Source: Pseudoscleropodium purum
Taxonomy: Eukaryota > Streptophyta > Bryopsida > Hypnales > Brachytheciaceae
DNA: 64,000 nt
Direction of reading: 5' to 3'
Assembly: GCA_963969395.1 (NCBI GenBank)
Contig: OZ017795.1
Span: 33,213,063-33,277,062 of the forward strand
Part shown: piece after piece, positions 30,801 through 52,952 of the stretch
Layout: each line of letters starts with the position of its first letter
Position numbering within the stretch: position 1 is the stretch's first letter
Notes under the pieces: model-generated
What the model saw: only the letters and a program-made list of their open reading frames with translations
Told to the model about the DNA's origin: nothing
Databases searched by the model: none
Program-made: the position numbers and the translations under genes

Positions 30801-31222
30801 CTAGCTTCACGATCACATCTGCTCCATGGTAGGCTGTTTGCCAATCACAATCACTATATTGCTCGAATGGAACCAACCTATAAGTACGATTCCTTGAGTT
30901 CTCTACCTCCACGGCAACCTTGAAGGCTGATTCCCTGAGAATTATACCAACACAAAGAAATTTCGTCAATATACATCCAAACCTTGATTAAGATGAGATA
31001 TTCATTTTGAAACATTTGTTGAGGATTGAAAAAGAAGGTATATAATTTCAGTCTTACGGTGCCTTACCATTCTATAGCAAGATCTGTAGGAATCTCGGAA
31101 GCAGCGGCCGGACCCAGGAAGGCCAAGGTGTATTCTGGCTTTTGTTGTGCTCTAACGATGTCGAATTGGTTAATGAGATTTAATATCCCTACTAAGAGTA
31201 GGAAAACCCACGGCGTCGCCAT
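27868..31222 (-). CDS. ANF/LIVBP-type (Venus-flytrap) receptor-like protein with a single membrane helix, 490 aa
   Basis: Minus-strand exons: 31068-31222, 30629-30934, 30335-30374, 29957-30040, 29661-29834, 29398-29467, 29065-29115, 28538-28875, 28347-28373 (27-bp microexon), 28194-28265, 27868-28023. All splice phases agree and no stop interrupts the 490 codons. The N-terminal 25 residues form a signal peptide (MATPWVFLLLVGILNLINQF). The body has periplasmic-binding-protein-like I landmarks: YTLAFLGPAAASEIP, VIGVVGPACSGAAM, ISMISFAATAEP, FRTVYPDRYQAQAIAAS, VTVLHTKQYYSTN, WWYFGTDGV, LQGEIGIAPYGG and LLDTVQLYFKICDSL. The last exon encodes one hydrophobic helix (about aa 448-468, AGAIAGGIFGVLIALALIVG) followed by WKKK and a short tail. 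It resembles the amino-terminal domain of plant glutamate receptor-like channels, but the LAO/PBP2 domain, pore and other helices are absent. Expected place: plasma membrane, binding domain outside. The ligand is unknown. Confidence 0.85.
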
Positions 31223-33241: not shown

Positions 33242-35141
33242 TTAAAATAAAGACTAGTGTGCCCTGCACCATTGCCACAGTCAAAATAAAAGTAAAAGCA
33301 ATTTTCTAATTTTTTAATTGATAATTTTTTGAAATTCAATAACTTTCACATAGTAAGTTCAAATGTTACAAAACAAAGCCCATGCATCCCTCCTCGCTAA
33401 GGGCTTTCCAATGGTACTAAGAATGCGATTGGGGGACGCATAGTCCAAGAGACCTCATTGTAACAAATAAAAAAACAAAACAAACAGCCTATCTTAAGAT
33501 GTTGATAGGATCTTTTTTAAGATTTTAAGGTTTGTCTTGAGTGAATGAGTGGTGACAATAAAATCATCATACAGCTATATTTGGATAGAAAACATTTTTC
33601 ATTATGTACTCGTACTTCACTGATTCAATTTTTACAATTACATGCATAATTAACAATTATCATTTATTATTTGGTGAAAAAAATGAATCTTTGTATCGAA
33701 AATTGGATTTTTGAAAAAACAAAATGTCCATAAAATATTGTCCTCAACAAAATTTTGCAAGTAAAAAATCACCAACAAAAATTATGGAAAAGGAGGTTGT
33801 ATATAAAAGGTTTTATTCATTAATTTTGGGTAATGCAAATAGTAATCTTCATTAGGTGATGATGCTAAGTACATCTATGTCTATACATGAAATATGAAAA
33901 ATATGGATGGAAAATATTTGTGCATCTAAAATATAAGCATTTATAAAATAAAGAGCAATATAATTCTATGATTTTGTTTCAATTCAAAGATGTCATTTAC
34001 TAATAAATAGGAATGTGTTGTTGAATATCCTTCCTACAATTTGAATCACTTTTGAATCTATTATCAATTGATTTCTAGAATATTATGTGTTTTGAGGTCC
34101 AAAACTACTTCAAAATATTCATACCTAAAATAAGGCTAAAATCTTCATTTATATTTGTATTGTAATGAATCAAACCCAAGGGTCCTTGAGTCAACCTCTA
34201 AAATTTCAAAAAATCCAAAAATGATTTAATTTGGAAAGTTCACTCAAAGTTCAATCAACTATTGGTATTTGATTTTGATTTAAAATAGGTGTGCACAATT
34301 TTTTTTCTAGTATGATTTTCAAATAGAAATTTGGAATTATATAATATGCACAAATTCAATTTTGAATGTATTTTTGGAATTTTTTGAAGTAATACAATAA
34401 TTTTTTGAAGGATTCTTAGTTCTTTGTAAAGGGCTCTTGGTACCCCAGAAGGATCTCTTACTAATAGGAAGCTTCCCTTAGTGCTAAAAAATTTCCCTTA
34501 ATTTTTTGGATGTTATCATTAGAAAGACTCTAGCTTGATTTTTTTGTCAATGGCTTGAGGTAGCAAGGGAAAGGTACTTGGATCCTAGTGACCCTTTCTT
34601 TGTGCCTTAGGATCATTTGAAGGCCATCAAATCTCCTGAAGTTCATGTTGCCTTATAGTCCTTTTAGGAGTTTAAAGGAATGAGTTGTTGGTCCTTAACA
34701 AAGTTGAAAAAGTGTTTTTTAAAATCAAAAGGTCATGGTTTGCAACTTTTCATTAAATTAATCCCTAAATTCCATGACTATGTATTCACCAAAAATGCTC
34801 CAAAATTGCTATTTCTAGTACAACTACTAATTTTTGGAATTTTTTTTTTGACATGTAACTATAGGATCTTGTATTATGATGACTTGAAAACATGTGGTAA
34901 AAATTTCAAAAATTTCTACAGTGTGGATTGTAAGATATAAACATTCAAATTCAACAAAACCATTTTTTCAACTTTGTGAAAAAACGGGTAGCTGCACTTC
35001 ACAAGCTCAATTTTTTATGAAAATGACCAATATGGTAGTGCTTCTTTAGATTATTTTTCCTAGACAAGTTGGCCAAATGCTTGAAAATTTTTAGATCATT
35101 TGGAATAGTACAATATATAGGAAAAAAATAGTAAGTAGGTA
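33242..35141. other. AT-rich spacer left of the large transposon
   Basis: Very AT-rich, with no exon-like or repeat structure that I can support. The 86-codon frame at 34680-34940 has no recognisable motif. Confidence 0.45.
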
Positions 35142-35275
35142 CAGGGTTGACGAATCTCTATGTCCGCCCCAAAATAGCGTTTGAAACCCGGACGTCCGGA
35201 CGCTAGCGGACGCAGCGTCCCTCCCGTCGTCGGAAGGCGGACGGACGGGGCGGACAGACAGGGTGGCTTAGAAAA
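35142..35275 (+). repeat. Type A terminal arm of the large element
   Basis: Begins CAGGGTTGAC, then has the CCGCCCCAAAATAGCG segment common to all type A ends, a CGGACGTCCGGACG palindrome, GCTAGCGGACGCAGCGTCC and a run of ggcggac units. The GC-rich arm contrasts with AT-rich DNA on both sides. Repeated subterminal motifs are the usual transposase-binding sites of hAT elements. Confidence 0.75.
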
Positions 35276-35617
35276 TCCGTTTTGGGTTTTTTGTTTTGAT
35301 TGTTTTCACCAATGAGAGATTGAGAGTGAAGTCATTTGGATTTTGATTTTTCTTATATTGCAATTGCGATTTAATAGAGTTGTATATCACTATTTATGTA
35401 AAAGCTAAAATATGAAATATATTTTTAATTTTTTTTGTTGAATTTCATTTTGATTTAGAAACAAAATCACTTTAAAATCCAGCGAGATGTATATCATCAA
35501 TAAACAAACAATTTTATAATAAAATGATTGAAGAAACCATTGTCATTTGTAAACATGAGCTTCATATATCATGAGCAACTAAACAATCAAACATCTAAAT
35601 TCACATCTCCACAATTC

Positions 35618-38600
35618 CTATGGACGCCAATCCACATCTCCTTTAACCTCAGTCCCACTATTCTCTCCTGCAGCTCTCTGTTCAAAATCTTCATTATCGG
35701 AGTCATCTTCATTGTCGGAGTCATCTTCATTGTTGGAATCAAGTATCGTTGTCTCCTTCAAGTCTTCTCTCGAAGTAGGTTTATTCCCTTCTTTCGAATT
35801 TAATTTTTCTTTTTTTACTTTGATAGAACGATTAAAGGCTTTTTGAATAGGAACCTTTCTTTTCTTTCTATTTGACAAAGTAGCAACATTTTCATCAAGA
35901 GGGGTCCTATTCTTCACTGGAGAGATAGCAAAAGGTTGCATTTCTCTTTTCGCTTTCACCTTACTCGATTCTTAAACCATCAATCTCGATGTAGGGTTGA
36001 CATGTCCATGAACGGTTATCTCCACTTTGGCTTTCTTTTGAAGTAATAGAGTGCCGTTTGTTGATTTGATGGGTTCTTGCGCCATTCTTTTTCCTAAAAT
36101 GCGAGCACCCAAAGATGCCAATGGCATCCGATCACTATCCGTATCACTTAGGCTTGTAGGTGATGACGCTACTTTCCGTAGATTACCGCTTGTAGAAATT
36201 TCTTTGGAAATGTTTATTAGACGTTTTCCATATTCAAAGCTCTGGGAATCATCCAATCCGACCAATCGTGTGCTAACAGACTTCAACGGTATTGGTGGAA
36301 GAGCACTAGATCTCGGTACTTCAAAAATTGATTTTATTGGCTCCTTTCCTTTATCACTCTTCACAATTGCTGAATTTGTGACTGCCATCCCAATTGAATC
36401 ACTATTTTTCTGTACCGCAATATTTGGTTCCCCCTCATCACCACTATTGTTGCCTACATCTTTTGGAACGTCCACCTTCATGACCGCATCTTCTCTTCTG
36501 TTGTTTCTTTGCACTACATTTAATGCCATAAATGGAGATTGAGAAATTAGAACTTCTTCATTTCTCCTATCATCACCAATAGCATTCTCATTGATTTTCA
36601 CCTCTTTGGCAATAGCGTTTGCCTTTTCCGATAGAATGTTTTCGTTATTCAAGAATCCCATTCCATTGCAATATGCAGTTAAAGAAGGTAGACTCTCTTG
36701 TACCTCTACATTATCCTCATCTTCATAAAAGGTATATACATTGTTTGCATTGTCGGGAACAACATCCTTGTGGTTTAGATGATAATCATGCGTATCATTC
36801 ACCAAATTGGGAAAGTCTTGCATAACGTCTTCATCTCCCCACGCTATCGCACGATTGAAGTCATCCCCACCATCTACAGCTGAAAGGGCCCTTTCCAAAT
36901 CCTCGTCATCATCGTCTTCTAACGTCGGTCTATCTGAATCCTCTGATTCCATCGGATCCACATTATCATTATACCATTTTTTTCATCTTTTTCCTTCGAT
37001 GTGTTTAATACTTTGGAATTGGTATACACATACACCAAATCCGCTGCTCTCTCCGGCTTCAATTTATTTCGAGATTTGTTGTGAACAAAAGAATAGTTGC
37101 TCCAATTCCATTCACATGAAGATGATGATACCGGTTGAGCCAATATCTTCTTCGCTAATGGAGCTATAAACTTGCTACATACACCTTCAAAATCCCACCA
37201 AGCATGTGCGGACAACATTTGATCTCCTGGATTCAACATATTGTGGAATGGAGGTTTCTTGTGTCGAAAAGCCACAAATTCCTTCACCACTACTGCATAT
37301 TCATCCGGTTTACATATTCTCTCCAAAACTTTCTTACATTCTGACATTGCATCTGTGTCATCCGCTAGCTCTTTGTCATGAAGAAGATATGGATTCAAAA
37401 GAGCTGCGGCTGATTGGAGATCGTTGTCCACCATTCTTCTTCGGGCATAAAAAGACTGTACCAATGGAATTGCAAGTTTTTCTAGCAAACAAAATGGTGG
37501 ACTTTGTAATCCGTTCACGTACTTCTCTAACTTCCTCATGATATGCAACACCTTCCCCATGCATGGTGATTTTGAATCCAAATCGCAGAGTGCACATATG
37601 ATTCGTTCAACCATCTCCACATAATTGATGGACCGATTCCAAAAATGGTCATCAAGAACAATTTTCTTCACCGCTAAAGCCAAGTATTTTGGTTGGACTT
37701 TGGCTCCACGTTTCTTCTTGAGAGTATTTACATACTCAACCCATTGCGGATCTACCACCGTTTGTTCCAATGCTCCTCTCAATTTTGTCAAACGTTCCAT
37801 CATGATAAATTTAGAGGCGAACCTTGTATCTCTAGGCATCAAGAGACCAAGATTTGGCGAATACTTTCACAATAGAGCTAGCGGCATATGTCTCTTCCTG
37901 ATAAATTTAGCTACAAGAACTCTTTTATCCAATTTGGAAGCAATCCATTTCTGTACAGCCTAATCTTTCAACAACAAATTCAATGCATGTACCACGCACC
38001 CTTGGTAAAAAATATGAGGATATTTTGCAGATATTACATCCCATGTGGACGGATTCACGGGAGTATTATCAGTAGTTATTAACATGACGTTCTTGGACCC
38101 CACTTGTTCAATGAACTTTTCCAACACAACTGCTAAGTACTCCGCATTTTTTTCACAACCACTTGTATCTACAAATCCAAGAAATTCTTCACCTGCAGAT
38201 GATACAAGCATGGCATTGATGAGAGGTCGATTAGTCACTGAGCTCCATCCATCAATGGACAATGTTGCTCCAAATTTTCGAATGCTATCTTCGGTCCGTG
38301 CATTCAACTATGTCTGAATGTTGGTCTTCGCCTCATTCAACAATTTGTACTGAAAGTCGTGGTATGAGGAAAGAATGTATGGCCTACCGAACGTAGCTGT
38401 TTTCTTCACTGCTTCTTTAAAAGCTGGATTTTGAGCCACGAAAAATGGTATGTTCGCCGAATAAAAAAAATTTGCCTACACTGAATGTAATTTGCGTCTA
38501 TGACCTTCTTCAAACCCATTCACTAAGCTGCCTTGCCTCTGAGGCCTAGAACTTGATGCCCTCGGGGTTTCATGTTCACCAGAAGCTTCTGTACTCAAAG

Positions 38601-38940
38601 TCACTTCAGTTGTAGCACATACCATTGATATCAATTCTTTGGACGCTAGACAAGAGTCTTCGTGGTCAGAATGCGACATAGTCTTTCCGGCCAAAAACTC
38701 TTGGACATCTGAAGGACCAGGGTTGCCATCCACATTGTCCATTACAACGCGTTTTGGAAAAACTCCTTCGCAATGCCGAAATAAATCTTGAACTGCCATT
38801 GGTAATCGTAGACAAAGGTTTACCTCTTTATCACGTATACCTTTAGGCTCAGGATAGCCTAAGTGGCTCAACATACGGTCGAGCTTCCTTGCCATGACCG
38901 CCTTGCAAAGCCTACATTCTACTTTACCATCATGTGCCAC
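35618..38940 (-). pseudogene. hAT transposase (BED finger, DUF659, dimerisation domain), disrupted
   Basis: One minus-strand frame runs from 38940 to 35618 with five in-frame stops (TAG 38476, TAG 38308, TAG 37960, TGA 37867, TAA 35972) and one frame change in an A-run near 36980 (7 A where 8 would keep frame). In order: a BED-like zinc finger (VECRLC...SHLG...C) at 38940-38810; a linker; DUF659/RNase H-like core with LSIDGWSS (first catalytic Asp), LITTDNTPVN (second Asp region) and CVVHALNLLLKD; RDTRFASKFIMMERL; then the hAT C-terminal dimerisation domain (CEWNWSNYSFVHNKSRNKL, DLVYVYTN) near 37200-37010. About 430 further codons form an acidic then Lys/Arg-rich extension (KKRKVP, a nuclear signal-like motif) not usual in the family. 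An upstream exon probably exists: the frame is closed just before 38940, where an AG acceptor sits. It would excise and reinsert the element if intact. Confidence 0.85.
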
Positions 38941-39293
38941 ACTATATCAAAGAGAAAAATTCCCTGTCGGTTTGGCCCTCATACTAACAAGTGTATGTTT
39001 TACCTCAATTTCAAAAGAAACCAATAGAATGTTTTAAATTTGAAACCCACAACTTGACAATGTATACAATATCAATGAAATTAGTCACACAAAGCTTTGA
39101 AAATCAAAGCCCCTCCGTCCACCGAACTATGCATTACCAAGCAAGAGACACAATAAATTGAAGCTCATAACCCTTGGAAATCTTAGCGTTCGGTTTTTCG
39201 AGAGTGAATACAAAAGCTTCTCTTCTAACATTTATAATCCCCTCCAGAAAATTTAGAGTTCATATTTTAGGGTTTACATTAAAAAACAAGCAA

Positions 39294-39408
39294 CGGCGCG
39301 CACGGGGCTGAAGCGGACGGGCGGACGGGTCGGGCGGGCGGATGGGGCGGTCGGGCGGACAGACCAGACGGGGCGGACGGACAGGGCGGACGGGGCGGAC
39401 TTCGCATT
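39294..39408. promoter_or_regulatory. GC-rich ggcggac repeat block upstream of the transposase frame
   Basis: Tandem-like ggcggacgg/gggcggac units in otherwise AT-rich DNA, about 350 bp upstream of the BED-finger exon. A telo-box (TTTAGGGTTT) lies at 39266-39275. The same heptamer builds the element's ends, so it may serve as promoter, transposase-binding site, or both. Function is inferred from position and repetition. Confidence 0.5.
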
Positions 39409-39702
39409 GCCATTAGTCATTAGAAAATTTTATATTGTTATGTAATTTGAATGTTACACAATCAAAAATGAATGCATCCACGTAAAATAAGGTGTACATA
39501 TAAAAATATTTTTATACGCAAATGAAAATATAGCATCTTTATATATAAATATATATGTATAAACAAAATACATGAAAACATAGTTCCAATATCACTATTG
39601 AATCCTATACGATCTTTTTAAGATCTAAATCTTTCACATTCTTTTTTGTTTTTAAACAATGAAAGGACCATTGTTTTTAAAAAACAAAATTCTCTTCAAA
39701 TC

Positions 39703-42700
39703 CTACTTTCCACCGGATGTACCACTACCTTCTCCCAAAACAAAAGGAAAATTTGTTGTACCAAGGAGTTTAGCAGATGATTGACGAGTTGACCGTTGTT
39801 GACTTGGACGGACTATTCGCCCTCCAGATTGAACTTTGATGTCCACCTTATGAAATTGTTTCTTGGTTTCCGGAGAGAAGTCATCGTCCTCTTTACGCTT
39901 CTTTTTTTGTTTTCTTTTTGGTGATAAATCGACTTCGTTTGCCTTCAAGGTTCTCAAGTTGCTCTCCACACGATCTACCATCGCTTGAACAACTTCATCA
40001 TCTCCTTTCCCTTGCGATGTTGTGACGCAGTCTCCATCCAATAGGAAAGCCTTCCAATGCCCTATAATATCGCCAATGCGCCTATCAAATGCTGCTGTCA
40101 CATCTACAGATCAATGTCCTGTGCTTGTTTGTCCATTTGTATCGTAGATAGCACGAACTTTTGCAGCCTCTTCCAACTTCGACAATAGAAGGGCCCTACC
40201 TACGAGGGTGTGGTCGTATGCCTTATATTGCTCATCGAACTCTTTTCCATGGTTCACCTCCATCCAACTGTCTTTTGGTCCTCTTTCCACTTTTTTATCT
40301 AGAAAACGAAAGAACTTTTCGTGTTGCAAGCTCCAATGTCCCCCCATGTTGTGACAAAACATTTCACGGGCCGCGTCATCTACGATTCCTCGAGCCCGCA
40401 ATTCCACCTCTCTATTGTGAGTCATCCACACTTCGAAATCCAATGGTTGCTGAGATTCCTTGTACAAATCATGCCTCTGTTCATTTGCATTCTACTGGAT
40501 TGGCTTCTCCCGATGTTGATAATTTTGAAATTTGTACGGCGCTTGATCAAAAGAAAAATTCCAACGATTGTACTCGTGGCCTAGAGGCATAGCTTTCAAG
40601 ATATCAAACATTTCGTAGAACCTAGCATTCAATGGACTACGACACTCAGTACACACCGAATGAATGAGTGATGCTTTCACAATGCAAGTGACATGGAAAG
40701 TGTGGCGACATTGGCCCATGATTACCGCACCTTCCGGTCCGAAGAGGCCTTGGCAAAGGCTACAACAACCATCCAAGATTGGAGAGGCTGGATCACAAGC
40801 ATGCACCACTCGCATGTCTTTCACATTGATGTGTGCTGAAAGTGTATCGTAAGGGATCCATCCTTCCTCTACTTCCAAGGCCCAATTGATGGGTGGAGTT
40901 TGGTTCTTCTTTGTGTGGTTTAACCGCTCAAACATGGCATCCATGTCTCCCCAACATGTGATCTCCATATATCCCTCAGAAGGATGTTGATCAAACATAA
41001 TCTTGAACCAATTCAAAGAGCTTTGAATGGCATCGCAATTTTCATTCAACTCCATTGCCAATGTTTGAAGACCTACCATTGCTTAAGATACTATAGAGGG
41101 TCTGTCTTGGAGTCTTTGTACCCATACTAACCATTGAGACTCCAAGCCGCTAGATGGCATAAACTTCTCTAAATCCAAGCTCAATTGCAATCGATTCAAC
41201 TCGGATTCAACAATTCCTTTTGCTTCAATTGCCTCCTCCAATTTATGCTTCAACTCTTCAAAGTCACAACTCTCCGTTTGCGTCTCCACATTCACGTAAA
41301 TGGATGAAAGCTTTTCCATTGATGGTTGTTGTGTCGCTTTTAACATGCTCATGTTGTGACTTTCTTGTACATTCACAATGGCAGGGTTGTCGCTTGCTTC
41401 GGCCTTATCAAAAGGAAGAGAGAGCTTATCTTCACTCTCTTGAGTCTCTTGACTGTCTTCAAGTACAATCACAGGTGAAATTGCAACCTCACTCGGATTC
41501 TTGGAGGTCCTTTGTATTTCTGCAATCTGTTTACGCATCTTCATCAACTCCTCCATTTGCCTCGATGATTATTGATTTAAATGTTCAACCTCACTCTTCG
41601 AAGTCTTTAATTTCAACTCCAACACTTTGCACCTTGCTTCCATTCCTCCAAGGTCAACAATTTTCTTCTCATATTCCACCAATTGTAATATGTGAACATC
41701 TCTTTCTTCAAAAAGTGGTCCGAAAGTCTTCATGAGATTCTGAAATGCTATAGCACCTTTCAACATCTCTGGTGCTATGAAAGAAAATTCCTTGGCCAAA
41801 TTCATAAAAGTCGGAGCAACTTCCGATAAAAATTCAGTTGACATCGTCATCTTGAAAATTGTATCAAGTATATGTCCAACATTCTTTGGATCTGCAAGTG
41901 GACTCATTGGAACAGTAGTAGCACCATCATCGGGGTTAGACGATCCGCCTATTTCTTCATGAAGGTTAGCAAACTGAACCGAGAGCTTCAAAAGATTTTC
42001 CAATTGTTTTGGATTGGACATGTCTTGTAAGGTTCAATGTAGAAGACTCAGCAATGACGCTGTAAACGGAAACTCCTCCGCCCGCTTTTTACACTCGGAA
42101 TTCCATAATGAGGATATATTATCAAACGTCACGCCTTGTCCACGAGGCGTATGTACTTTGTCTTCTAAACTTAACGCTGGACTAGATTCAACGCCTTGAT
42201 GCATAGGCGGAGATTTGTAGACCAAACTATCAAAACAATTGTTGGCTATCAGACTATCAATTGTAGCATTAGCCTTTGCCACTTTCTCCGCCAAGACTTT
42301 GTCTACTTTACTTTTTGAAGTTTCCCCGCGTTCCGTGCAAACATTGCTTTCGTTTACAGACTCCGTTTGCGTTTGTGCCGCAACATTTGGTGTAAAGGTC
42401 AAACGCATTGGAGCTGTGGAAAAGACTTCACCCTCTTGCGCCTCTACATCTTTCTCCACATCTTTCTCCACATCTTTCCCCACATTTTTCGAAGAGCTTT
42501 CATTGATGGCTTTTGTTGGAGATTGTACAGACCGTAATTCTTCAACATTTGAGGCTTTCTCCACACCATCCGTTTTCACCTCAATAGTATTTTTTAATAC
42601 TTTTTTTGTTTCTCCCTCTGAATTGTACAAGTCGGGAATGTCCTTTTGATTGGCTTCAAGTAGAAGTGGGCAAGTTGTTGTCGGAAACGTGCTCCAATCA

Positions 42701-43110
42701 ATCTTGCGGTCTAATATAAGTTCAGTGTAAACCATACACGCCATGCTATAATTAATATAGCCTTTGCTTCTGGGCTTGTTTCCGAATAGAACACGCCACA
42801 CCTCCGCAGATCAATGAACAAAATGTTTGTTGTTGCAAGTCCATGGTTTACAACAAAAATCCCGTGTATGACTCTTGTGCGACTCCTGAGGCCACAACTT
42901 GTCAATGTGGTACATTTTAACATAGGTCCTGCACATTTTTTATGTCCAATACTCCACATCTTCATCTTCCCACCCGCTCTCTACTTTAATTGTAGGGTCA
43001 TTTAAAATGTCAAGCCGAAGGTCATGTGTAGCCTCCTTCATTTTGCTCTTTTTTTTGGCTTCGCTTGCCGGAGTCACCCCATCAATATTTCGATCACCTT
43101 CGCCGTTCAT
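39703..43110 (-). pseudogene. RING-finger protein of about 1,135 codons inside the transposon, seven in-frame stops
   Basis: A single minus frame from the ATG at 43110 to the TAG at 39703 has seven stops (TAA 42940, TGA 42811, TGA 42034, TAA 41569, TAA 41083, TAG 40492, TGA 40111) but no frameshift over 3.4 kb. The N-terminus is Lys-rich, then Trp/Cys-rich (KVESGWEDEDVEYW). A low-complexity middle with VEKDVEKDVEAQ follows, then coiled-coil segments (LEEAIEAKGIVESELNRLQL). A RING domain lies near 40790-40640: CSLC, then CRH-TFHVTC, then CTEC, in the order C-x2-C-x11-C-x-H-x2-H-x2-C-x10-C-x2-C (RING-H2 form). The basic C-terminus contains PKRKQKKKRK. RING proteins usually act as E3 ubiquitin ligases. 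Why a transposon would carry one is unknown. I do not recognise the family outside the RING. Confidence 0.75.
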
Positions 43111-43319
43111 GATTGTCAATTGGATTCAATAACCAATTGAAGTGAATAAAAAAATCTCACGTGATAGTCAAAAGTAATGGCATCAACCGTAACACAGTAA
43201 CAAAAGATAGAGGACCCCAACTCTCCACCCCGTAGGAACAACTAGCGCATAAAGCAATAGTAGCACATCCAATTTGGCACCGAAGGAGAATTAAAGTGAG
43301 AAGAAATGAAAAGTCACTC

Positions 43320-43565
43320 CACCCTTATAGCCGTCCGCCGCCGAACCTGCCCTGGACCGCGCGAAGCGGCCCCGAACCTCGCGTATGCTACCCGGACCGA
43401 CGACGTCCGCTTCGGTAGCGGACGCGCCATCCCCCCATCGCCCCGTCCAACCGCCGCGTCCGCCCGGACTGTCCGCACTATTCGCCTTCCGATGCTGTCC
43501 GCGCTTTGGACACGCCGACCATCCCACTTAAACACTAACCGCCAACAGCGTCCGCCCAGCTGTCC
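43320..43565. promoter_or_regulatory. GC-rich gtccgcc block upstream of the RING frame
   Basis: About 210 bp upstream of the RING frame's ATG lies a 245-bp block of gtccgcc/gcggacg units with pronounced CpG content. A telo-box-like AAACCCTAAA is at 43695-43704. It has no coding sense: both strands are open only because of base composition. The likely role is promoter and/or transposase-binding region. Confidence 0.5.
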
Positions 43566-43570
43566 ATTGG

Positions 43571-44744
43571 TGCATCCTATGAGGCCATTATTATTCAAAA
43601 AGAGCAGTAACATTTCAAAAAAAAAACAGCCTAATAATCACTGCTAAATTAGGATCAATGTAATTGATTTATCATTTAAAAAAAAAAAAAATGTAAACCC
43701 TAAATCCTATACCCTAATTACCCTAAACCTTTTCTTTTCTCCCCTAAATTATTTTATGAATGAGGGGAATGTGGTTAAGTTGAATATGTTTGGATTATTT
43801 ACTTATATTATCCCTCTAAATAGGTTTTGAGAAGATCTGAAGATGGTGGGGATTTTTTTAAAGTTCATTAGAAAATCAAATGTTTTGCAGAAACAATCAA
43901 TTCCTTTTTTATTGTAAGCAAATGAAATTTTTTAAAAAGGTCCCAATACATAATTAGAATAACAGTTTAATGGATTTCAACCTCATGATATTTAATAAAA
44001 GGTTGTGATTTCTAATTAGAAGTGCATCACGATCTTCAAATGAACATCGAGTCTTTCATATTTTTTAATGAAATTTTGATTAGATTTGAAAACAAAGAAA
44101 AAGAATCAATGTTTTAACTTTCAAATCATGTATGGCTATATTTTTCCTTAAAAACATAGAAAAATTCGTTACTTGAGTTGATTGAATAGAATACATTATA
44201 CACTTATACATGTGCTATATTTATTTTGAAGGGTAATTCCAATATTCTTATTTCAGATGTTTTTAAATATTTATTTTAAAAAAGAGGGTTCATTGTTTAA
44301 AGATCTAAAAAATTGACAAACATAATTTCTATTATAAATAGGAATTGAATTCGGAATTTGAATTTTGAAATGATTCAAATGAACAAGATATTGATTATAA
44401 AATATTTCTTCGTTTGAGTTTTCAAAATGAATTCACGAAACAATTGCAAACTTTTGAACTTAGGTATATGGTATTGTTTTTGGTGTGTACTTTGTAGAGT
44501 ATAATACTTCAATTTTAATCCTAAATAAATGAGAAAACTCCACATGAATGAAATGTTTCTATGTATTGCACAAAGATTTCTACCAATTACTATGATAATT
44601 AGATACATTGTTACATTTCATAAAATATTCTACATAGAAAGAAAAAATCATTTTAGTTTTCAATCATGATAAAGAACTTTAGGGGTTAAACATCTATATC
44701 GTTAGATTTTGAAAAAAGAACAATTTGCTTCATTGGGTTTAGAG
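43571..44744. other. AT-rich central spacer between the divergent gene pairs
   Basis: No coding signal. It separates the left-pointing and right-pointing halves of the element and is bordered on both sides by telo-box sequences (43695-43704; 44745-44758) in opposite orientation. Confidence 0.5.
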
Positions 44745-45075
44745 TTTAGGGTTTAAGGTGAGCCGTCCGCCCGATCCGGCGTCCACCTTGTCCGCCCCAA
44801 TACCCGTCCGCCCTGTCCACCCGATCCAGCGTCCGCCTTGTCCGCCTTGTCCACCCCGATACCCGTTTGTCCTGTCCGTTCGATCCGGTGTCCGCGCTCT
44901 TCGACTCGTCCGCCGCGATACCCGTCCGCCCGATTACGGCCGTCCGATTGACAAGCGGACTGATGTAGTCCGCATGATCTGGACGTCCGCCTTGGGGCAT
45001 CTACTTATATATATATGGAGGAGGCGGACGGCTCATTCCGAACAGTCGTTCTCTTTTGGAGTGGGCGGACCAGTG
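44745..45075. promoter_or_regulatory. GC-rich gtccgcc block with telo-box upstream of the zinc-finger frame
   Basis: It starts with TTTAGGGTTTAAGG (44745-44758), then repeated ccgtccgcc, cgatccggcgtcc and atacccgtccg units to about 45030, ending roughly 170-200 bp before the ATG at 45242. The same arrangement occurs at the other frames of the element, which supports a promoter role. Confidence 0.5.
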
Positions 45076-45241
45076 CCTTCGAAGCTCTGCGCGCCCCCTT
45101 CCGCTTTGAGTGAACGATTGTTGTGACATTGTTACAAATTTTCACAAAGTTCACGCTTGTAAAATTTTAATTAATTGATTAAATCAAAATTTTGGTTCTT
45201 AAGCTTTCTAATTGTTTCATTCTCTTTGCTTCGGCTTCATC

Positions 45242-46988
45242 ATGCCGAAAGATAGAACACCCAAAAAAAGTAGTCGAAAGGGAAGACCCCAATTATTCGA
45301 TTTGGATGCTTGGGCCGGTCCATTGTGCGTGGGTGAATCAGGATGGGAAGAGGAACCAACAAAAGTGTGGGATTGCTCAATGTGCAAGAAGTATGTGAAA
45401 ATGACTCACATTCAAAAACTTTGGCGACGTGAACGTGTAGAGCACAAGCGCCACGTTGGGAAGGACAAATGTCTACGTGCCAAAGTGAGCACTTCAAACA
45501 ACGATACATACAAGTGCATCAAGTTCTTGGCATTAAAAGCGCCAAACCAAATCTAATGAATTATAATGTTATGGCAATGGTTTGGGCAGAGATTGTACTC
45601 CACAAGGACGTGGACAGGCGTACTGCTACAGGTTGCAATGTGGAGAACTATACGCGCACGGATGCCGTTATAGATACACAGTGGAGGGGCACAAGCAATT
45701 GCATGCTAGAGTGGTCCAATCGAGGTTATCTACAACAACCTTCAGTTGTTCTAGGAGATGCTGAAGATGCGTGAACAGATGACGATGATATGCAAGCGCC
45801 TGTCACATTTGGAGTTAGGCACAAGCGGGTAGAAGAATGAGAATGAATTGAATTCGAACAACAAATACAAGAGGCAACACGCAGAAGCCTTCAAGATCGT
45901 GGACAGCAAGATAGGCATGGTGGGTCCTACGGACGTGAATATGGAACGCGAGAATCTGAACAAGGAAGAAGTGGTTCATACTTTGGTTACGATCCTCAAA
46001 ATAGATATGAAAGTGGAAGAGGGAGCTATGGATCCACGCATTATGGTGGTTCAAGTGTAGTTGGTTCTCATTATGGCACTCCCCCTGAAATTGGCTCTCA
46101 AGGTGCAGTAGGTAGCTATGGCAACACGCACTATGGTAGGTCTAGTGGATCTGGTTCATATTATACTACGTCCACTCAAGTGGGTTCCAAAGGTAGTGGA
46201 GGAAGCCATGTAACCCCGCAGTATAGTTGCTCTCTTCATGGAAGTGCCCAATACTATCCGAGATCAACTAGAAGTGATTCATACAAGCATCATAGGTAGG
46301 GTTGACAGGACGTCCGGACGGGGACGTTGTGTTCACAGTGTCCGCTGACATTCGCGAATGCCGTCTGCCCTGTTCGCTCGTCTGCCCCACTCCGCCCTCG
46401 TCCGCCCGCCTGTCCGCCCGCCCTGTCCCACCCTGTCCACCCCGCCCTTTTCGCCCTCGTCCGCCCGCGTCTGGCCGCCTGTCTGCCCCGCCCGTCTGCC
46501 TTCCAACGGCGGGAGGGACGCTGCGTCCGTGCGTCCGGACACTAATGGACGCAGCGTCCCTCCCGCCGTTGGAAGGCGGACGAGCGGACGGGCGGCCAGA
46601 CGCGGGCGGACGAGGGTGGACGCGGTCGGACAGGGGCGGACGGGTAGGGGCGGACAGGGTAGGGCGGACGGGGCAGACAGGGCGGGACAGGGCGGACAGA
46701 CGAGCGGGCGGACGGCGTTCGCGAATGTCAGCAGACGCTGCGAACATAGCGTCCGCGTCCGGACGTCCTGTCAACCCTGCTGATTATGGGGCCTCTTATT
46801 ATGGGGCTTCAAATGAAAGAGGATCAGAGCCTACTACTCTTGTTTCTCCTCCCACTTTTAGAGGTTCAAGCTATGGACAAGGAGGTGCACCGAGTGGATA
46901 TCACGGAAACTACGGAGGTGGTCCGTTCATTGAAGTACAAAGAAGAGGCAACGGTCAACAATTTGAGTCCGATTCAGATTCCGAATAA
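45242..46988 (+). pseudogene. Zinc-finger protein with Tyr/Gly/Ser-rich tail inside the transposon, interrupted
   Basis: From the ATG at 45242 a basic start (MPKDRTPKKSSRKGRP) leads to a BED-like finger (CSMC...HKRHVGKDKC). The frame then changes by one between about 45480 and 45555 (an indel or a missed intron) and continues to 46296 with three TGA stops (45772, 45838, 45844). An acidic/Gln stretch (EFEQQIQEATRRSLQD) is followed by a long low-complexity tail of SYG, HYG and YGS repeats. The tail is split by a 483-bp element (46297-46779) and resumes at about 46785 (ADYGASYYGASNERG), ending ESDSDSE at 46988. The composition resembles prion-like, phase-separating tails and the YG-rich ends of some plant hAT proteins. 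The role is unknown. Confidence 0.6.
46297..46779. mobile_element. 483-bp fold-back hAT MITE (two type B arms) nested in the zinc-finger frame
   Basis: Begins TAGGGTTGACAGGACGTCC and ends GGACGTCCTGTCAACCCTG. The two halves are near-complete inverted copies of a type B arm built of gtccgcc/ggcggac units. It interrupts the Tyr/Gly-rich tail. The flanks (atcatagg; gattatgg) give only a poor target-duplication match, so the exact boundary or age is uncertain. Apparent long frames on both strands come from base composition. Confidence 0.8.
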
Positions 46989-48000
46989 AAAAACATGCAA
47001 GTATATAGTGAGCATGTGTTTGCTCAATTTTCTCATTTTTACTCTCACGACAAGTATAGAGCACTAGATTGGTAGAAGTAGTACAAAATTTTAAATGAAT
47101 AGAACAATTTTGAACAACAATTTTGTTCACTTTTTCAAAAAGTGTTGTGTAATAGTGTACACCAAGTATGTATGTAGGCAAGCATATTGTTGAAGACATC
47201 ATTGTATTATTTTATAATAGCGTTGATGTATAAGGCTATAAGCGACTTTGATAAATAATAAAAATATGAAGAAGAAATGTAATTTTGTAAGAGCCATATT
47301 ATGTCTATTTTTGAATTTAGCATTCGAGGTTAAATATATACTAGCATGGTGTGTATTTTAAAATTATTGTTGTGTGTTTATTACATTTAGAAACTCGTAA
47401 ATGGTATAAATGTATTTCTAATTAATTTATGAAAGATTGAATTATTTGAATATTTGAAATTTTTTTATTCTTCATTCAACGATTGCTAAAAACTAAAATG
47501 ATTTCTTATTGGTATGAAGAAATGTCCAAATTAGACAATTAGTGGTTCCTCTTTAGATTCTATTTTCAAATATGGAAATTCACTGAAATGGTTTATTTAT
47601 GGTTCTTTAATTGACAAGTACATTGATGGAATGCACCGAAAAAAAAAACATTATTAAATACAAGAGTTAATCCTTCTCTTTATCTTTTCCATTTTTATTT
47701 AAAATTGCAAGTGCACCATTTATGAAAGACCTAGGGTCACAATAGGGACCTATGATTCAAGTCATTTGAAAATTTATAAATAAATTACAAATCTTTGAAA
47801 AAATACAAAACCACTTGATTTTAATTCTTGATCAATTTCTCTTTGTCTGAAAAATGAGAAAAAAATATTCCCATCCAAAGAAATAGATGAAAAAAGCGGA
47901 TCAGCCCTCAGATGCACCATTTTTGAGACTCCCAGCCTGCCTTAAGACTTGAAAACAAAATCAAATTTGAAACTCATATAAAAAATCGGGATATTAGAGC
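46989..48000. other. AT-rich spacer within the transposon
   Basis: No coding signal or repeat structure seen. It lies between the zinc-finger frame and the regulatory block of the kinase-like frame. Confidence 0.45.
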
Positions 48001-48004
48001 AATC

Positions 48005-48320
48005 CGTTCTTTGCCGTCCGATCGGTTTACACCAGATTTGTCCGCCCTTGCCTGTCGGATCGGGCGGGTGCCAGATTTGTCCGCCCGTGGCCGTCCAATC
48101 GGGCGGATGCAGCTGTAGGGTTTCGGGGAGGCAGACGGCCAATGCGTCCGCTACCCGTGGCCCGTCCGATCAGGCAGACGCCAGATTTGTCCGCTCGTGG
48201 CCGTCTGATTGGGCGGACGGGGCTTTAGGGTTTCGAGGAGGCGGACGGCCGATGCATCCGCCACCCCCGGCCCGTCCGATCAGGCGAACGGTTTGGGGCC
48301 GTCCGATGGGGCAGACGAGC
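48005..48320. promoter_or_regulatory. GC-rich block with about 110-bp tandem repeat upstream of the kinase frame
   Basis: Contains two diverged tandem copies of about 110 bp starting at about 48071 and 48181 (both begin CCAGATTTGTCCGC), each with a telo-box (TAGGGTTT at 48116 and 48226) and ggcggacgg/gtccgatc units. It ends about 200 bp before the ATG at 48523, matching the spacing at the other frames. Promoter/transposase-binding role inferred. Confidence 0.5.
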
Positions 48321-48522
48321 CATCTGCATTGTCACTTTTGCTTTGTCCCTTGTGAATGCAAGGTGGAGCAGAGAGCTTGATGGTTCATCCTCCATTGGCT
48401 CCTTTCCTAGGCAAGGCAAGGGTGGTTTATTGGGGCCCCCTTGTTGCCAATTTTTTGGACACTTGCGCGTGAATTCAATTTTAAATTAAAAAATTTGATC
48501 TATATCAGTTTCATTTGTCACG

Positions 48523-50016
48523 ATGCCGAACAGGAAGAAGAAGGTTGCGAAGCTAAAACATGGAGAGGGACCATCAAACTTGGAGGTAGCTCGCCAAAGT
48601 CCTTCGAAAGAATGCAAGAAATTCATAATCGAACGCATCGTTCAATTTTATGAATTGAAAACAACATTGTCTTTAGACAATAAGTACATCAGATATCAAG
48701 AGGAGTGCGTGTCTAAATTCAAGGTAGACATGACACAGATGTTGTTGGATGCATTGAATGTTCCGAAGTGGCATGACGAAATGGATAAAACACACTTCAC
48801 CAAATGTTTGGAGAACAAGGTTCATGACGCTTTGTGGAATTTCAAAGTCATTTTGGTTAAATATGGCAAGGAATATCGACCCAATGACGCCCAGTTTGAA
48901 GAAGTGATTCTGAAAGTGGACTTATTTAGGGGGCGATGTGCTCCATTCGCCAAAAGGCACAATCGAGTTGGTTCGATTGCTTGGTGGAAAAGCAATAATG
49001 GAGTTACTGAAGCAGAAAGGACCAAACGGCACCTCATAGCACTTCCAGATACAGCACGCGTGATTGTTGTTGATGATAGAACGATGAGAGGTGGATATAC
49101 AACTATTCGAAAGGTTCGTATTGAAGGATGTCCAGGAATACTTCCTTATTAGGAGTTTGCGGCAAAGAAATCCATTCACCACCAAACTCAACCCAATTTT
49201 GCAAAGTTAGAACATCAAAACGAATCAATGGCTGTTCGAATTCCACACGCGGATGTGATATAGTTTGCTGCGGTGTACGGAACGATGTGTGAAGATTATG
49301 CGTATTGGTGGAACGGTGGAACTCTTCGACAAATGTTGAATATGGATAAGGACTATCCAGACAACATTCAAATCCGTTTGATGTATACGAATCCAACCGA
49401 AGAGGAGGTTGCAAAAGCTCACCGTTTAGGGCGATATCGGAAGAAGCGCACGGAGCTGACATGGGCCTTTATGCATATAATGTATGCAGTGCATCTTGCT
49501 AGACATTTGCACAATGATCTTTCTCTGGACAACATCTTGTTGCGTTTTCCAGAGGATGAGTCACGTGTACACATTGGAGTTTGCGATTGGGGCATGACCA
49601 CCTTAGCTTCTCAACCAATAAAGTCTTTGTACACATTTACATCAGCAAATGAGATGAAACAGACTTTGCAGAGGAGATGGTGGGTGGATCCACGTATTGC
49701 ATATTTGCATAAAGCATGTGCAGATGTGGAAGTCATTCCGATGTATTCACGTAAGTCGGAATAGTATGCCATTCGAAAAATTGCTCAGCGAATGAATGAA
49801 AACAACATGTAAGAGGCGTATTTCAACTTGCTACTTAAAACACCTAGTGCGACACAATTTGCCTTTCATGACTTTACAAAAATGTTTTATGCTTACTTGA
49901 AGCATAGTTCTTCGAAGACTGACGATAAAAATACTAATTTGACCCATGTGATTACGCGATTTTCTAATACATATCGTTGACCGATGCCAGATGAACATTT
50001 CCACCATTTATATTAG
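48523..50016 (+). pseudogene. Protein-kinase-like protein inside the transposon, four or five in-frame stops
   Basis: One plus frame from the ATG at 48523 to TGA 49978 or TAG 50014 (about 485-497 codons) has stops at 49150 (TAG), 49261 (TAG), 49762 (TAG) and 49810 (TAA), with no frameshift. The N-terminus is basic (MPNRKKKVAKLK) and about 180 residues are of unknown kind. Kinase subdomains then appear in order: a glycine-rich-loop-like GGYTTIRKVRIEG, FAAKKS (VAIK-like), a hinge followed by WWNGGTLRQML, the catalytic loop HNDLSLDNILL (HxD...N form with Asn for Arg), and CDWGMTT (DFG as DWG). Catalytic Lys, Asp and Asn candidates are present, so the ancestor could have been active. I do not recognise it as a standard plant kinase subfamily. 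Confidence 0.75.
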
Positions 50017-50091
50017 ATTGGTAGTGTAGAAGTAGTAGTTGAATAGGTTATATAGGCATTAAAAATTAGTTTAGAAATATAGAGTTGGAAT

Positions 50092-50382
50092 CAGGGTTGA
50101 CACGACGTCCGGATGCGGACGTTGTGTCCGCAGCGTCCGCTGACATTCGCATCCTAGTGGACGCAGCGTCCGCCCGTCCGCCCGATTACGGCCATCCAAT
50201 CGACGCACGGACTAATTTGGTCCGCACGATCTGGGCGTCCGCCTCGGGCTGTCCGCCCCACCCCGCCCCGCCCGTCCACTTTCCGACGGCGGTCCGGACG
50301 CTGCATCCGCTAGCATCTGTGCGTCCAAACGTCCGGAAAATGGACGCTATTTTGAGGCGGACGTTGACATTCGTCAACCCTG
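50092..50382 (-). mobile_element. 291-bp hAT MITE with perfect 8-bp target duplication
   Basis: Starts CAGGGTTGACACGACGTCC (type B) and ends with the complement of a type A arm (TTGACATTCGTCAACCCTG). It is flanked on both sides by gttggaat (50084-50091 and 50383-50390). No coding capacity: a deletion derivative keeping only the two arms. Given as minus because the type A end is on the right. Confidence 0.92.
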
Positions 50383-50543
50383 GTTGGAATGAAAAAAATT
50401 ATATGTGCAATTAGCCAAATGTGCACACTATATGGTATATGTAAATTTTTGAGTTCACAATATATGGTATTATATATTAAATTCAATACATTTTGCCCAT
50501 ATTGATTATGTTTGTATTTGTGTTGATCTCGATTTTTTAAATA

Positions 50544-50544
<1 letters not shown>

Positions 50545-50603
<59 letters not shown>
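50545..50603. repeat. (TA)n microsatellite
   Basis: About 29 uninterrupted TA units, directly visible. It lies between the nested MITE and the right arm of the large element. Confidence 0.97.
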
Positions 50604-50606
<3 letters not shown>

Positions 50607-50744
50607 AAGTCACAAACTTTTTTAGTTTGCCTTCTGAAAATGAATTGGAATTTTTTCATAGTTTCAAGACTATCATGGACTCATGGTCAAACTTTATAAT
50701 CTTTCAACTTATAAGAGACATTGTTTTAATTTTTTTTCCTATGT

Positions 50745-51690
50745 GGTTGAATCCCTAGAGGACCAACATGTGTTTTGGGGCAATATATAATTTTTGGGCA
50801 TACGTGTGACTGTAGATTTGCATATTTTGGGCTGAAATTTTTTAATAGAATGTGGGGATGAGGAATATCTTCCATATGCACAAATTTCATGACATTTGAA
50901 AATATGAGTCAAATCGCGAACCATTGCACTTCATTTAATATTTAATTGTTTAAGGATTAAGGGAGTGACCGCAGGGCAATTTGGGTAGGGCAGTCGGGGG
51001 AAACAGGGCCGTCAAAGCGAACGGGGCGGATAGGGGGGACGGGGGGACAGGCGGACGCTGCGTCCGCCGGGACCGCGAATGTCAGTGGACGCTGCGAACA
51101 CAGCGTCCGCGTCCAGACGTTCCGAACGTTCAGACGTCGTGTCAACCTTAAATAGGTAGTAGTAGATAATGATTCAAAATACTTAATTATTAAGAATTGA
51201 AATATGGAATTGTAAAATGTCCAATCCTAATGGTTGAAATATTGTAATAAACAATTTTCATCCAAATATTTTATTTTATTTTCAAAAATATTGAAAATTG
51301 AGTAAGATGAAGGACTTCAAAGTTTATTTTAGAATAGAAAGTTCATAATTGCCTATAAACAAAAAATCCTCATAGCTTTTGGCTTGTTGATCAAAATGGA
51401 ATGATTAAAAGATTTCCTTGTATATATAAGTCTAAAAAAACGATTTCAAATTTGGGTTTATGAAAAAAGTGATTTTTTCTAATTTGCCCAAATTGCCCAG
51501 TTACGAAAAAAAGTAATATATTAGGCTATAACTTTTGACTCCTATTTCCAAATGTCATGAAATTTGTTGCATATGAAAGATATTCCTCATCCACCCCTTC
51601 TTTAAAAAAAATTTAGCCTAAAATATGCAAATGTCTGGTCACAATGGCCTGCCCAAATTTTCCATACAACCAAAAAATGTAGTTCGGTCT
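50745..51690. repeat. Inverted repeat pair flanking the right end of the large element
   Basis: About 50745-50912 and 51525-51690 are diverged reverse complements. Landmarks: GATGAGGAATATCTTCCATATG against CATATGAAAGATATTCCTCATC, CAAATTTCATGACATTTG against CAAATGTCATGAAATTTG, and TTTGCATATTTTGGGC against GCCTAAAATATGCAAA. One copy lies inside and one outside the proposed right boundary at 51150, so the pair may be an independent repeat or a hint that the boundary is more complex. Confidence 0.65.
50990..51150 (-). repeat. Type B terminal arm of the large element
   Basis: Read from the right, it shows TAAGGTTGACACGACGTC, then gcggacgctgtgttcgcagc and ACTGACATTCGCGG, segments shared with the type B ends of the short elements, then gtccgcc-type units fading out near 50990. 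CAGGG has become TAAGG. The next 8 bases match the duplication left of 35142 at 7 of 8 positions. Confidence 0.7.
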
Positions 51691-52685: not shown

Positions 52686-52952
52686 CAAGGTTGACGAATG
52701 TCAACGTCCGCCCCAAAATAGCGTCCGTTTTCCGAACGTCCGGACGCACGGACGCTAGCGGATGCAGTGTCCCGACCGCCGTCGGAAAGCGAACGGGCGG
52801 GGCAAACGGACGGGCGGACGGCCCGAGGCGGACGCCCAGATCGTGCGGACCAGATCAGTCCGCGCGTCGATCGGACGGCCGTAATCGGGCGGACAGAGGA
52901 CAAGCAGACGCTGCGAACACAGCATCCGCGTCCGGATGTCGTGTCAACCCTG
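52686..52952 (+). mobile_element. 267-bp hAT MITE with perfect 8-bp target duplication
   Basis: Starts CAAGGTTGACGAATGTCAAC (type A, one change in CAGGG) and ends GGATGTCGTGTCAACCCTG (type B complement). It is flanked on both sides by gtttaagg (52678-52685 and 52953-52960). Arms and orientation match the large element 1.5 kb to the left, so it is a short derivative that the same transposase should recognise. No coding capacity. Confidence 0.92.

Follow-up and report, generated by a model that had tools for sequence, protein, structure and literature searches.

Elements of the hAT superfamily are usually described as single-gene transposons of roughly 3-7 kb, a profile that is usual and not strictly defining. 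A typical hAT element measures ~5 kb (PMC6710886), and among 276 plant hAT sequences that were surveyed together, the longest consensus is that of Gulliver, with 7,144 bp; the same survey gives none in the moss Physcomitrella, and the words kinase and RING are absent from its text (PMC6027215). Larger or more complex relatives appear in other reports, such as a fungal hAT of ~9.5 kb that holds histone H3 copies and makes 8-bp target duplications (PMC6710886), and the hAT7 elements of Puccinia fungi, which carry a TET/JBP gene and make 7-bp duplications (PMC12730594). The latter report also describes IS3EU elements, in which genes for a transposase, TET, and an alpha-kinase keep a conserved order, the kinase opposite the transposase; its text never uses the word RING. 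In a review of giant eukaryotic transposons, the whole word "hAT" occurs 0 times (PMC6431247). Here, we describe E1, an element of 16,009 bp in a 64-kb window (the whole stretch of DNA analyzed: Pseudoscleropodium purum, assembly GCA_963969395.1, contig OZ017795.1, positions 33,213,063 to 33,277,062, forward strand), which is very probably a dead copy of a giant multi-gene hAT transposon whose genes move as a set.

Between two unlike ends, named A and B, E1 comprises four genes, of which the transposase and RING genes run leftward and the zinc-finger/YG-rich and kinase genes rightward. This layout had been proposed in the original prediction, together with hAT-like ends and a 7/8 target duplication (agtaggta/aataggta); the former is borne out by a second full copy with the same arrangement and the latter by comparison of the ends. 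The transposase domains, 8-bp duplications, and CAGGG-type inverted repeat place the family among hAT elements. On the other hand, it departs from the usual one-gene profile of 3-7 kb, since four-gene forms measure 16-17 kb and two-gene forms 9.5-9.8 kb. E1 itself is dead, as none of its genes is intact and a pair of short relatives (E2 and E3) is nested inside it. The main features, in window positions, are as follows.

35142..51150, unstranded: whole element E1 (16,009 bp, nested E2 and E3 included), collinear with the second full copy
35134..35141, unstranded: left target duplication, agtaggta (7/8 against the right one)
51151..51158, unstranded: right target duplication, aataggta
35142..35262, plus strand: A end, CAGGGTTGAC followed by a subterminal GTCCG/CGGAC cluster
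51074..51150, minus strand: B end, the right end of E1
35618..38982, minus strand: hAT transposase gene, ~1,120 codons (DUF659, hAT dimerization, BED-like N-terminus, long acidic tail)
39703..43113, minus strand: RING gene, 1,136 codons (RING-H2 and an N-terminal domain common to the zinc-finger/YG gene)
45242..46987, plus strand: zinc-finger/YG-rich gene, for which three other copies have 417-420 codons
48523..49980, plus strand: 485-codon kinase gene with 4 in-frame stops that retains its catalytic residues
46297..46779, unstranded: E2, a fold-back element that has two B ends and is nested in the zinc-finger/YG gene, which it splits
50092..50382, unstranded: E3, nested short B..A element, gttggaat duplication 8/8
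52686..52952, unstranded: E4, a short related A..B element lying outside E1, with an 8/8 gtttaagg duplication

The evidence that carries this reading is a second full copy on another contig of the same genome (L024, G000:C40 5,997,454-6,014,570; 17.1 kb with a nested short element), which is flanked on both sides by CATAATTC, a perfect 8-bp duplication. From its A end to its B end, it holds the transposase and RING genes leftward and the zinc-finger/YG and kinase genes rightward, as in E1, and its DNA is 93.2% identical over 6,036 bases, 94.2% over 3,569, 91.6% over 1,374, 92.2% over 3,338, and 83.6% over the last 812. The interval from RING to zinc-finger/YG gene is ~1.6 kb shorter in E1 (250 vs 1,823 bases between flanking matches). 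The nested short element of the second copy sits in its RING gene, and E2 and E3 are both absent from it, with 8-base overlaps marking the two empty sites; E2 and E3 are thus later insertions into E1. The proposal that E1 is a giant element with accessory genes, and not chance nesting, is supported by this collinear copy and by the partial copies described below.

The left terminus of E1, at 35142, opens with CAGGGTTGACGAATCTC, and the right terminus, at 51150, reads GTCAACCTTA, a mutated form of the GTCAACCCTG found there in relatives. In five complete copies besides E1, the CAGGG-type terminal inverted repeat reads CAGGGTTGAC on the left side and GTCAACCCTG on the right. A and B ends differ from each other past ~10 bases. 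The first ~120 bases of E1 are 76-78% identical to the A ends of E3 and E4, and its right end aligns with the right-end type of E2, E3, and E4 (85% over 81 bases against the B end of E3). The genome holding the window (313 Mb, 52 contigs) was searched for further copies, and 40 A-end matches (the window's own included) were scored out of 2,859 candidates. In 33 of the 39 others, the match starts no more than 2 bases from 35142, and in the remaining 6 it starts 3-9 bases outside. Because these starts and the right-end alignment to E2, E3, and E4 agree, the boundary of E1 needed no choice. The chance that random 8-mer pairs match at 7/8 or better is 0.0006 in the window and 0.0007 in the 5-kb flanks. 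Duplications are 8/8 in the C40 copy, in four two-gene copies (L012, L018, L023, and L026), in E3, and in E4, and 7/8 in E1.

The transposase is encoded by one gene ending at 35618, and its lesions in E1 are 6 in-frame stops (5 in the core and 1 in the tail) and one frameshift near 36985. It had been read as a BED/DUF659/hAT-dimerization protein, which stands for DUF659 (PF04937, 84 bits against a Pfam cut-off of 34.7, E 1e-23) and Dimer_Tnp_hAT (PF05699, 35.4 bits against 21.4, E 9e-9), while zf-BED stays below its cut-off (14.8 against 20.6 bits). In the BED-like N-terminus, two Cys are kept in 22/23 aligned rows (the other having a gap) and a His in 23/23. The D237, D298, and E613 columns, which we take to be the hAT catalytic D, D, and E residues, are kept in all 23 aligned transposase rows, and the final motif of the acidic tail, counted by eye, in 17/22 relatives. 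At L019:1614-3533, near a short A/B element, lies another, distinct hAT transposase with 30% identity across 663 residues.

With regard to the accessory genes, the RING and kinase labels of the original prediction hold through relatives and a structure model, although the window frames themselves fall below the Pfam cut-offs. The RING gene of E1 has 7 in-frame stops and no frameshift was seen in it; its frame scores 26.8 bits against a cut-off of 27, just below both zf-RING_2 and zf-RING_11. Among its relatives, zf-RING_2 is found at E<=0.01 in 8/8, as fits RING-H2 proteins with their zinc ligands; one of them (P0055) misses the cut-off for zf-RING_2 but passes the zf-RING_11 one. A structure model of full-length P0055 (pLDDT 38) was too poor and was left unused. 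The kinase frame reaches 18.2 bits for Pkinase, below the cut-off of 31.7, and its identification is backed by 54 homologues. The model of one of these (P0001, pLDDT 82) matches kinase folds in the PDB, with 1,538 matches at E<=0.001 and top matches at probability 1.00 (TM ~0.6 by target length, rmsd ~9), and the accessory kinase is accordingly predicted from this model to have the eukaryotic protein kinase fold. The Lys, Asp, Asn, and Asp-x-Gly columns, presumably the ATP-binding and catalytic residues as assigned by motif, are kept in 22/22 rows, the window copy included.

The zinc-finger/YG gene had been given as one long frame; the gene is present, but in E1 its frame is broken by an indel/frameshift near codon 69, by more stops, and by E2, which splits it. 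Its N-terminus is similar to that of P0055, the RING relative, with 47% identity across 57 residues (E 4e-10). The protein also holds a long G/S/Y-rich stretch with many SYG-like motifs (45847-46296 and 46780-46986), a low-complexity stretch that we take to resemble prion-like domains. An alternative genetic code, which long frames with few stops might suggest, was considered and rejected: each of TAA, TAG, and TGA is found in frame, the majority of stops vary between copies, and other copies are stop-free.

Of the 39 other A-end matches, 25 were examined, 7 with 3.1 kb and 18 with 10 kb inward; three of the latter (L024, L010, and L025) were extended to 18 kb, and L016 was also extended. Ten of the 18 loci hold element genes, one (L019) holds the distant hAT only, and 7 are without any. 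The genes present are ordered as in the window in 10/10 gene-bearing loci, except where L016, L021, and L025 contain stretches that are inverted or nested, so that the expectation of the same order elsewhere held with these qualifications. Likewise, copies in which 10-20 kb separate the A end from the B end had been expected; one full copy (17.1 kb) fits, while four others are shorter. These four (L012, L018, L023, and L026; 9.5-9.8 kb) contain the transposase and kinase only, and all have perfect 8-bp duplications. In 4/4, the RING/zinc-finger spacer of the full copies is retained between the two genes, from which it follows that they descend from the larger form. L018 and L026 lie on the same contig, ~31 kb from each other, and have different duplications although 9,587 bases of them align at 99.1% identity, which shows recent movement of their subfamily. 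In L026, all four breakpoints of its two deletions lie within GTCCG clusters. Another partial form, L014, has the RING and zinc-finger genes beside an A end without the transposase. In addition, L016 and L030 together show a copy of the RING-zinc-finger-kinase-B form, with an inverted piece of transposase tail and A end directly next to its B end, probably one family member nested in another.

Such GTCCG/CGGAC clusters are a recurrent property of the family. E1 without E2 and E3 has 60 sites in 15.2 kb, only 8 of them in the 9.5 kb of coding sequence, and the window outside E1, with E4 removed, has 24 sites in 47.7 kb. They are dense at the A end and upstream of all four gene starts, with fewer sites at the B end. 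The four upstream clusters are as follows.

39314..39400, unstranded: GTCCG/CGGAC cluster upstream of the transposase gene, also in the second full copy
43333..43555, unstranded: GTCCG/CGGAC cluster upstream of the RING gene
44765..45070, unstranded: GTCCG/CGGAC cluster upstream of the zinc-finger/YG gene, part of which recurs in E3 and E4
48016..48305, unstranded: GTCCG/CGGAC cluster upstream of the kinase gene

The second full copy has a cluster at each same place and at its B end, and another in its nested short element. In E3 and E4, 73-76 bases of the zinc-finger/YG upstream cluster recur at 84-89% identity, reversed relative to E1.

The pairing of unlike A and B ends in two nearby short elements with perfect duplications, noted in the original prediction, was also recovered. 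E3 is flanked twice by GTTGGAAT and E4 twice by GTTTAAGG, each a perfect 8-bp duplication, and each element has one A and one B end. The 8-mers directly flanking E2 match at 3/8, or at 6/8 (atcatagg/attatggg) if its right edge is moved by +3 bases, as the empty site of the second full copy suggests. A B-type end was found within ~350 bp of 7/7 further A ends (L002-L008, 3.1 kb read around each). Among 19 short elements near fetched A ends, whose right end was placed by searching for the 10-mer GTCAACCCTG and allowing at most 2 mismatches, the flanks match at 8/8 in 13 and at 7/8 in 6. Three of these 19 elements (L004, L005, and one in L020; contig C47, 8.86-9.15 Mb; lengths 345-347) share the flank AGTTTGTG and are probably parts of a repeated chromosome segment. 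The giant family is the likely source of this short-element family, which is abundant in this genome.

Further copies of the genes were collected genome-wide. The best 41 of 1,656 RING candidates, the best 86 of 1,541 kinase candidates, and the best 41 of 1,346 transposase candidates were scored, the totals being first-look counts and not confirmed copies, and 1/41, 36/86, and 5/41 of them, respectively, are stop-free. Among these best-scored lists, there are 12 transposase-kinase neighbors (2-20 kb apart) against 0.20 expected by chance in any orientation, and 6 RING-kinase neighbors (2-15 kb) against 0.15. All 18 pairs are divergent, as in the window, and in one of the transposase-kinase pairs (C47 1,417,321-1,426,236) both frames are stop-free. 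When 10 of the 41 RING copies were probed at the predicted places, the kinase was present on the predicted strand in 7, in one of which a second kinase copy lies where the transposase was predicted. These neighbor counts and probes point to a modular family with the kinase as the shared part. It was also observed that same-gene neighbors less than 30 kb apart among the best-scored copies are in opposite orientation in 8/8 cases (2 RING, 4 kinase, and 2 transposase), several of these pairs having equal scores; within 100 kb, 10 are opposite and 4 are the same. This could be due to local hopping, to palindromic duplication, or to the assembly.

A mechanism can be proposed by analogy with the hAT family. 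The ~1,120-aa transposase would bind the unlike A and B ends, with their CAGGGTTGAC inverted repeat and GTCCG-rich subterminal stretches, and would excise and reinsert the element by cut-and-paste; the 8-bp duplication is observed, and the catalysis is that expected of the family. The genes for the kinase, which is a divergent one, and for the RING-H2 and zinc-finger/YG proteins travel inside as an old, conserved set. The GTCCG motifs at the gene starts and at the ends of the element may provide shared regulation by element-encoded DNA-binding proteins, and loss of gene blocks between clusters yields smaller mobile forms such as the transposase-kinase elements. These forms and the short A/B elements may be moved in trans, as stops shared between copies suggest. 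For the kinase and RING proteins, the most likely role would be action on host or transposase proteins, in regulation or in escape from silencing; the zinc-finger/YG protein might act in the same way, with the GTCCG clusters as common control sites. A more specific proposal, offered tentatively, is a modular multi-component system. In this proposal, the kinase is present in both large partial forms, while the transposase and the RING/zinc-finger blocks are split between partners by exchange at GTCCG clusters; the kinase and GTCCG-binding RING and zinc-finger/YG proteins would form a counter-defense or activation complex and cooperate in trans.

Several observations weigh against a set of four genes that moves together. 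An element with all four frames intact, which had been expected, was not found among the copies examined, where stop-free single frames do occur. Of the three candidates read to 18 kb, one is complete: L010 contains the transposase but, of RING, just the final 103 codons, L025 contains the transposase, RING, and an inverted RING piece with the same identities, and in neither was a zinc-finger/YG gene, kinase, or B end found to 18 kb. Full four-gene copies may thus be uncommon. L018 and L026 share transposase stops, an indication that a transposase made elsewhere moved them in trans. A stop at RING codon 58 (window near 42942) is common to 4/5 copies examined, so some forms spread with the RING frame already broken at its start; it was also seen that the RING relative P0056 begins just downstream of codon 58, and a later start codon may therefore be in use. 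Transposase and RING copies are never neighbors between the best 41 of each, and in the RING probes the transposase was at its predicted place in 1/10 and the kinase missing in 3/10. Relatives in other sources suggest that the same gene families are linked there, a suggestion that is indirect, as it relies on equal contig sizes. Finally, part of the selection data is not clearly below neutrality: the transposase tail has dN/dS (nonsynonymous to synonymous rate ratio) of 0.55-0.69 with p<0.05 in only 2/9 pairs, the window/L014 RING pair has 0.79 (p 0.1; 0.85 under another alignment), and the zinc-finger/YG gene has 0.59-0.80 (p 0.017, 0.20, and 0.084). On the other side, four frames in unrelated contexts, which would have spoken against one element, did not appear in the loci read.

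It is rather unlikely that the extra genes are captured host genes, mere passengers that contribute nothing to movement, in the manner of Pack-MULE-like capture. The zinc-finger/YG values and the early stop shared by several RING copies fit such passengers, as do the recent movement of the transposase-kinase subfamily without RING and zinc-finger genes and the fact that roles of the accessory proteins are predictions. However, most kinase and RING pairs give dN/dS values under 1: 0.41-0.68 for the kinase between genome copies (p<0.05 in 17/20 pairs), 0.24-0.79 for RING (p<0.01 in 9/10), and, for comparison, 0.43-0.75 for the transposase core (p<0.05 in 14/20). These values, from pairs that are not independent, are best read as upper bounds for the active lineage because the pairs mix selection with later decay; RING pieces under ~120 codons and the inverted L025 RING copy were dropped, as were, for the other genes, pieces covering <90% of the query and pairs with <=10 differences (such as L018/L026). 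The kinase is moreover kept in both partial forms (transposase-kinase, and RING-zinc-finger-kinase in L016), its large stop-free share among the best-scored copies speaks against mere carriage, and the scored RING and kinase copies in this genome are intron-free single frames across the whole query.

Furthermore, no host donor was seen, and the accessory proteins have families of their own. Protein database searches gave 54 kinase, 8 RING, and 43 transposase relatives, many near full length, the RING relatives being scored only among the 7,992 candidates sharing most words. The kinase relatives are 26-70% identical to the window kinase; the one named plant is Ceratodon purpureus (46%), and one relative at 69% is filed under a Bacilli metagenome-assembled genome, on a 2.9-kb contig. 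The RING relatives are 34-91% identical to the window protein. For the transposase, the best relative is 74% identical over 83% of the query and others are 58-60% identical over 95-98%, with named plants only distant (Cryptomeria and Penstemon). A viral or prokaryotic origin was considered as well and rejected: no kinase or RING relatives were found in a search of viral contigs, and no kinase relatives in one of prokaryotic genome contigs.

It is less probable still, and quite doubtful, that the four-gene form is a secondary fusion, in which transposase-kinase and RING-zinc-finger-kinase elements recombined via GTCCG clusters and were then copied. The missing transposase-RING neighbors among the best 41 of each, the single transposase in ten RING probes, and L014 with RING and zinc-finger genes beside an A end would agree with it. 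On the other hand, the RING/zinc-finger spacer held by all four transposase-kinase copies would be absent from an ancestor that never had RING, and the full C40 copy has one perfect duplication. In addition, transposase and RING relatives occur in the same source with longest contigs of equal size in two cases (17,649, ENA; 8,444, JGI). Transposase and kinase relatives share such a length in one case (27,639, ENA). No such link of RING and kinase was found among the listed relatives, and the kinase list itself has repeated lengths (2,291 and 2,044, twice each). As for unrelated insertions and host genes lying by chance between two unrelated ends, the mutated right end, the 7/8 duplication, and the real nested insertions E2 and E3 would allow it, yet the collinear second copy and the partial copies in the same order refute this reading, the probability of which is negligible.

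Elsewhere in the 64-kb window, no Rfam match and no tRNA were found. Likely host genes are represented by exons of an amino-acid transporter (Aa_trans) and of a receptor whose ligand-binding region is of the ANF_receptor type, at 6878-9936 (plus strand) and 30433-30987 (minus strand), respectively.

A conserved four-gene hAT element, with dozens of modular copies and relatives outside this genome, would widen the range of cargo known for plant cut-and-paste transposons. Its forms with or without RING, zinc-finger, or transposase genes, all with the kinase, offer natural comparisons for what a transposon gains from such genes, for example against silencing. In the accessible parts of the open-licence literature, multi-gene hAT elements are known in fungi, while neither a multi-gene plant hAT nor a hAT with this gene set was found.

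Like the fungal hAT7 and IS3EU elements, the E1 family consists of DNA transposons with conserved extra genes. It differs from the TET-bearing hAT7 in its 8-bp duplications and in that no TET family is among the Pfam matches of the scanned frames; its kinase weakly matches Pkinase and not the alpha-kinase of IS3EU. The fungal histone H3 hAT is similarly an enlarged hAT with extra coding sequence and 8-bp duplications. However, that element captured a known host transcript and has decayed by RIP (repeat-induced point mutation), whereas E1 has three genes without a known host source and with relatives elsewhere. For VANDAL elements and their VANC proteins (PMC10398659), element-encoded proteins are described as acting on noncoding stretches of the element, which is the model proposed here for E1. 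VANDAL belongs to a different superfamily from E1. Similar transposon-encoded regulators include mudrB and TnpA. Compared with plant hAT elements (the Ac/Tam3 type and other BED/DUF659 forms), E1 is alike in its transposase domains, CAGGG repeat, and 8-bp duplications, and its family shares with them the presence of short non-autonomous derivatives, here of the A/B kind; it stands apart from them by its four genes, its length of 16-17 kb, and the long acidic tail of its transposase.

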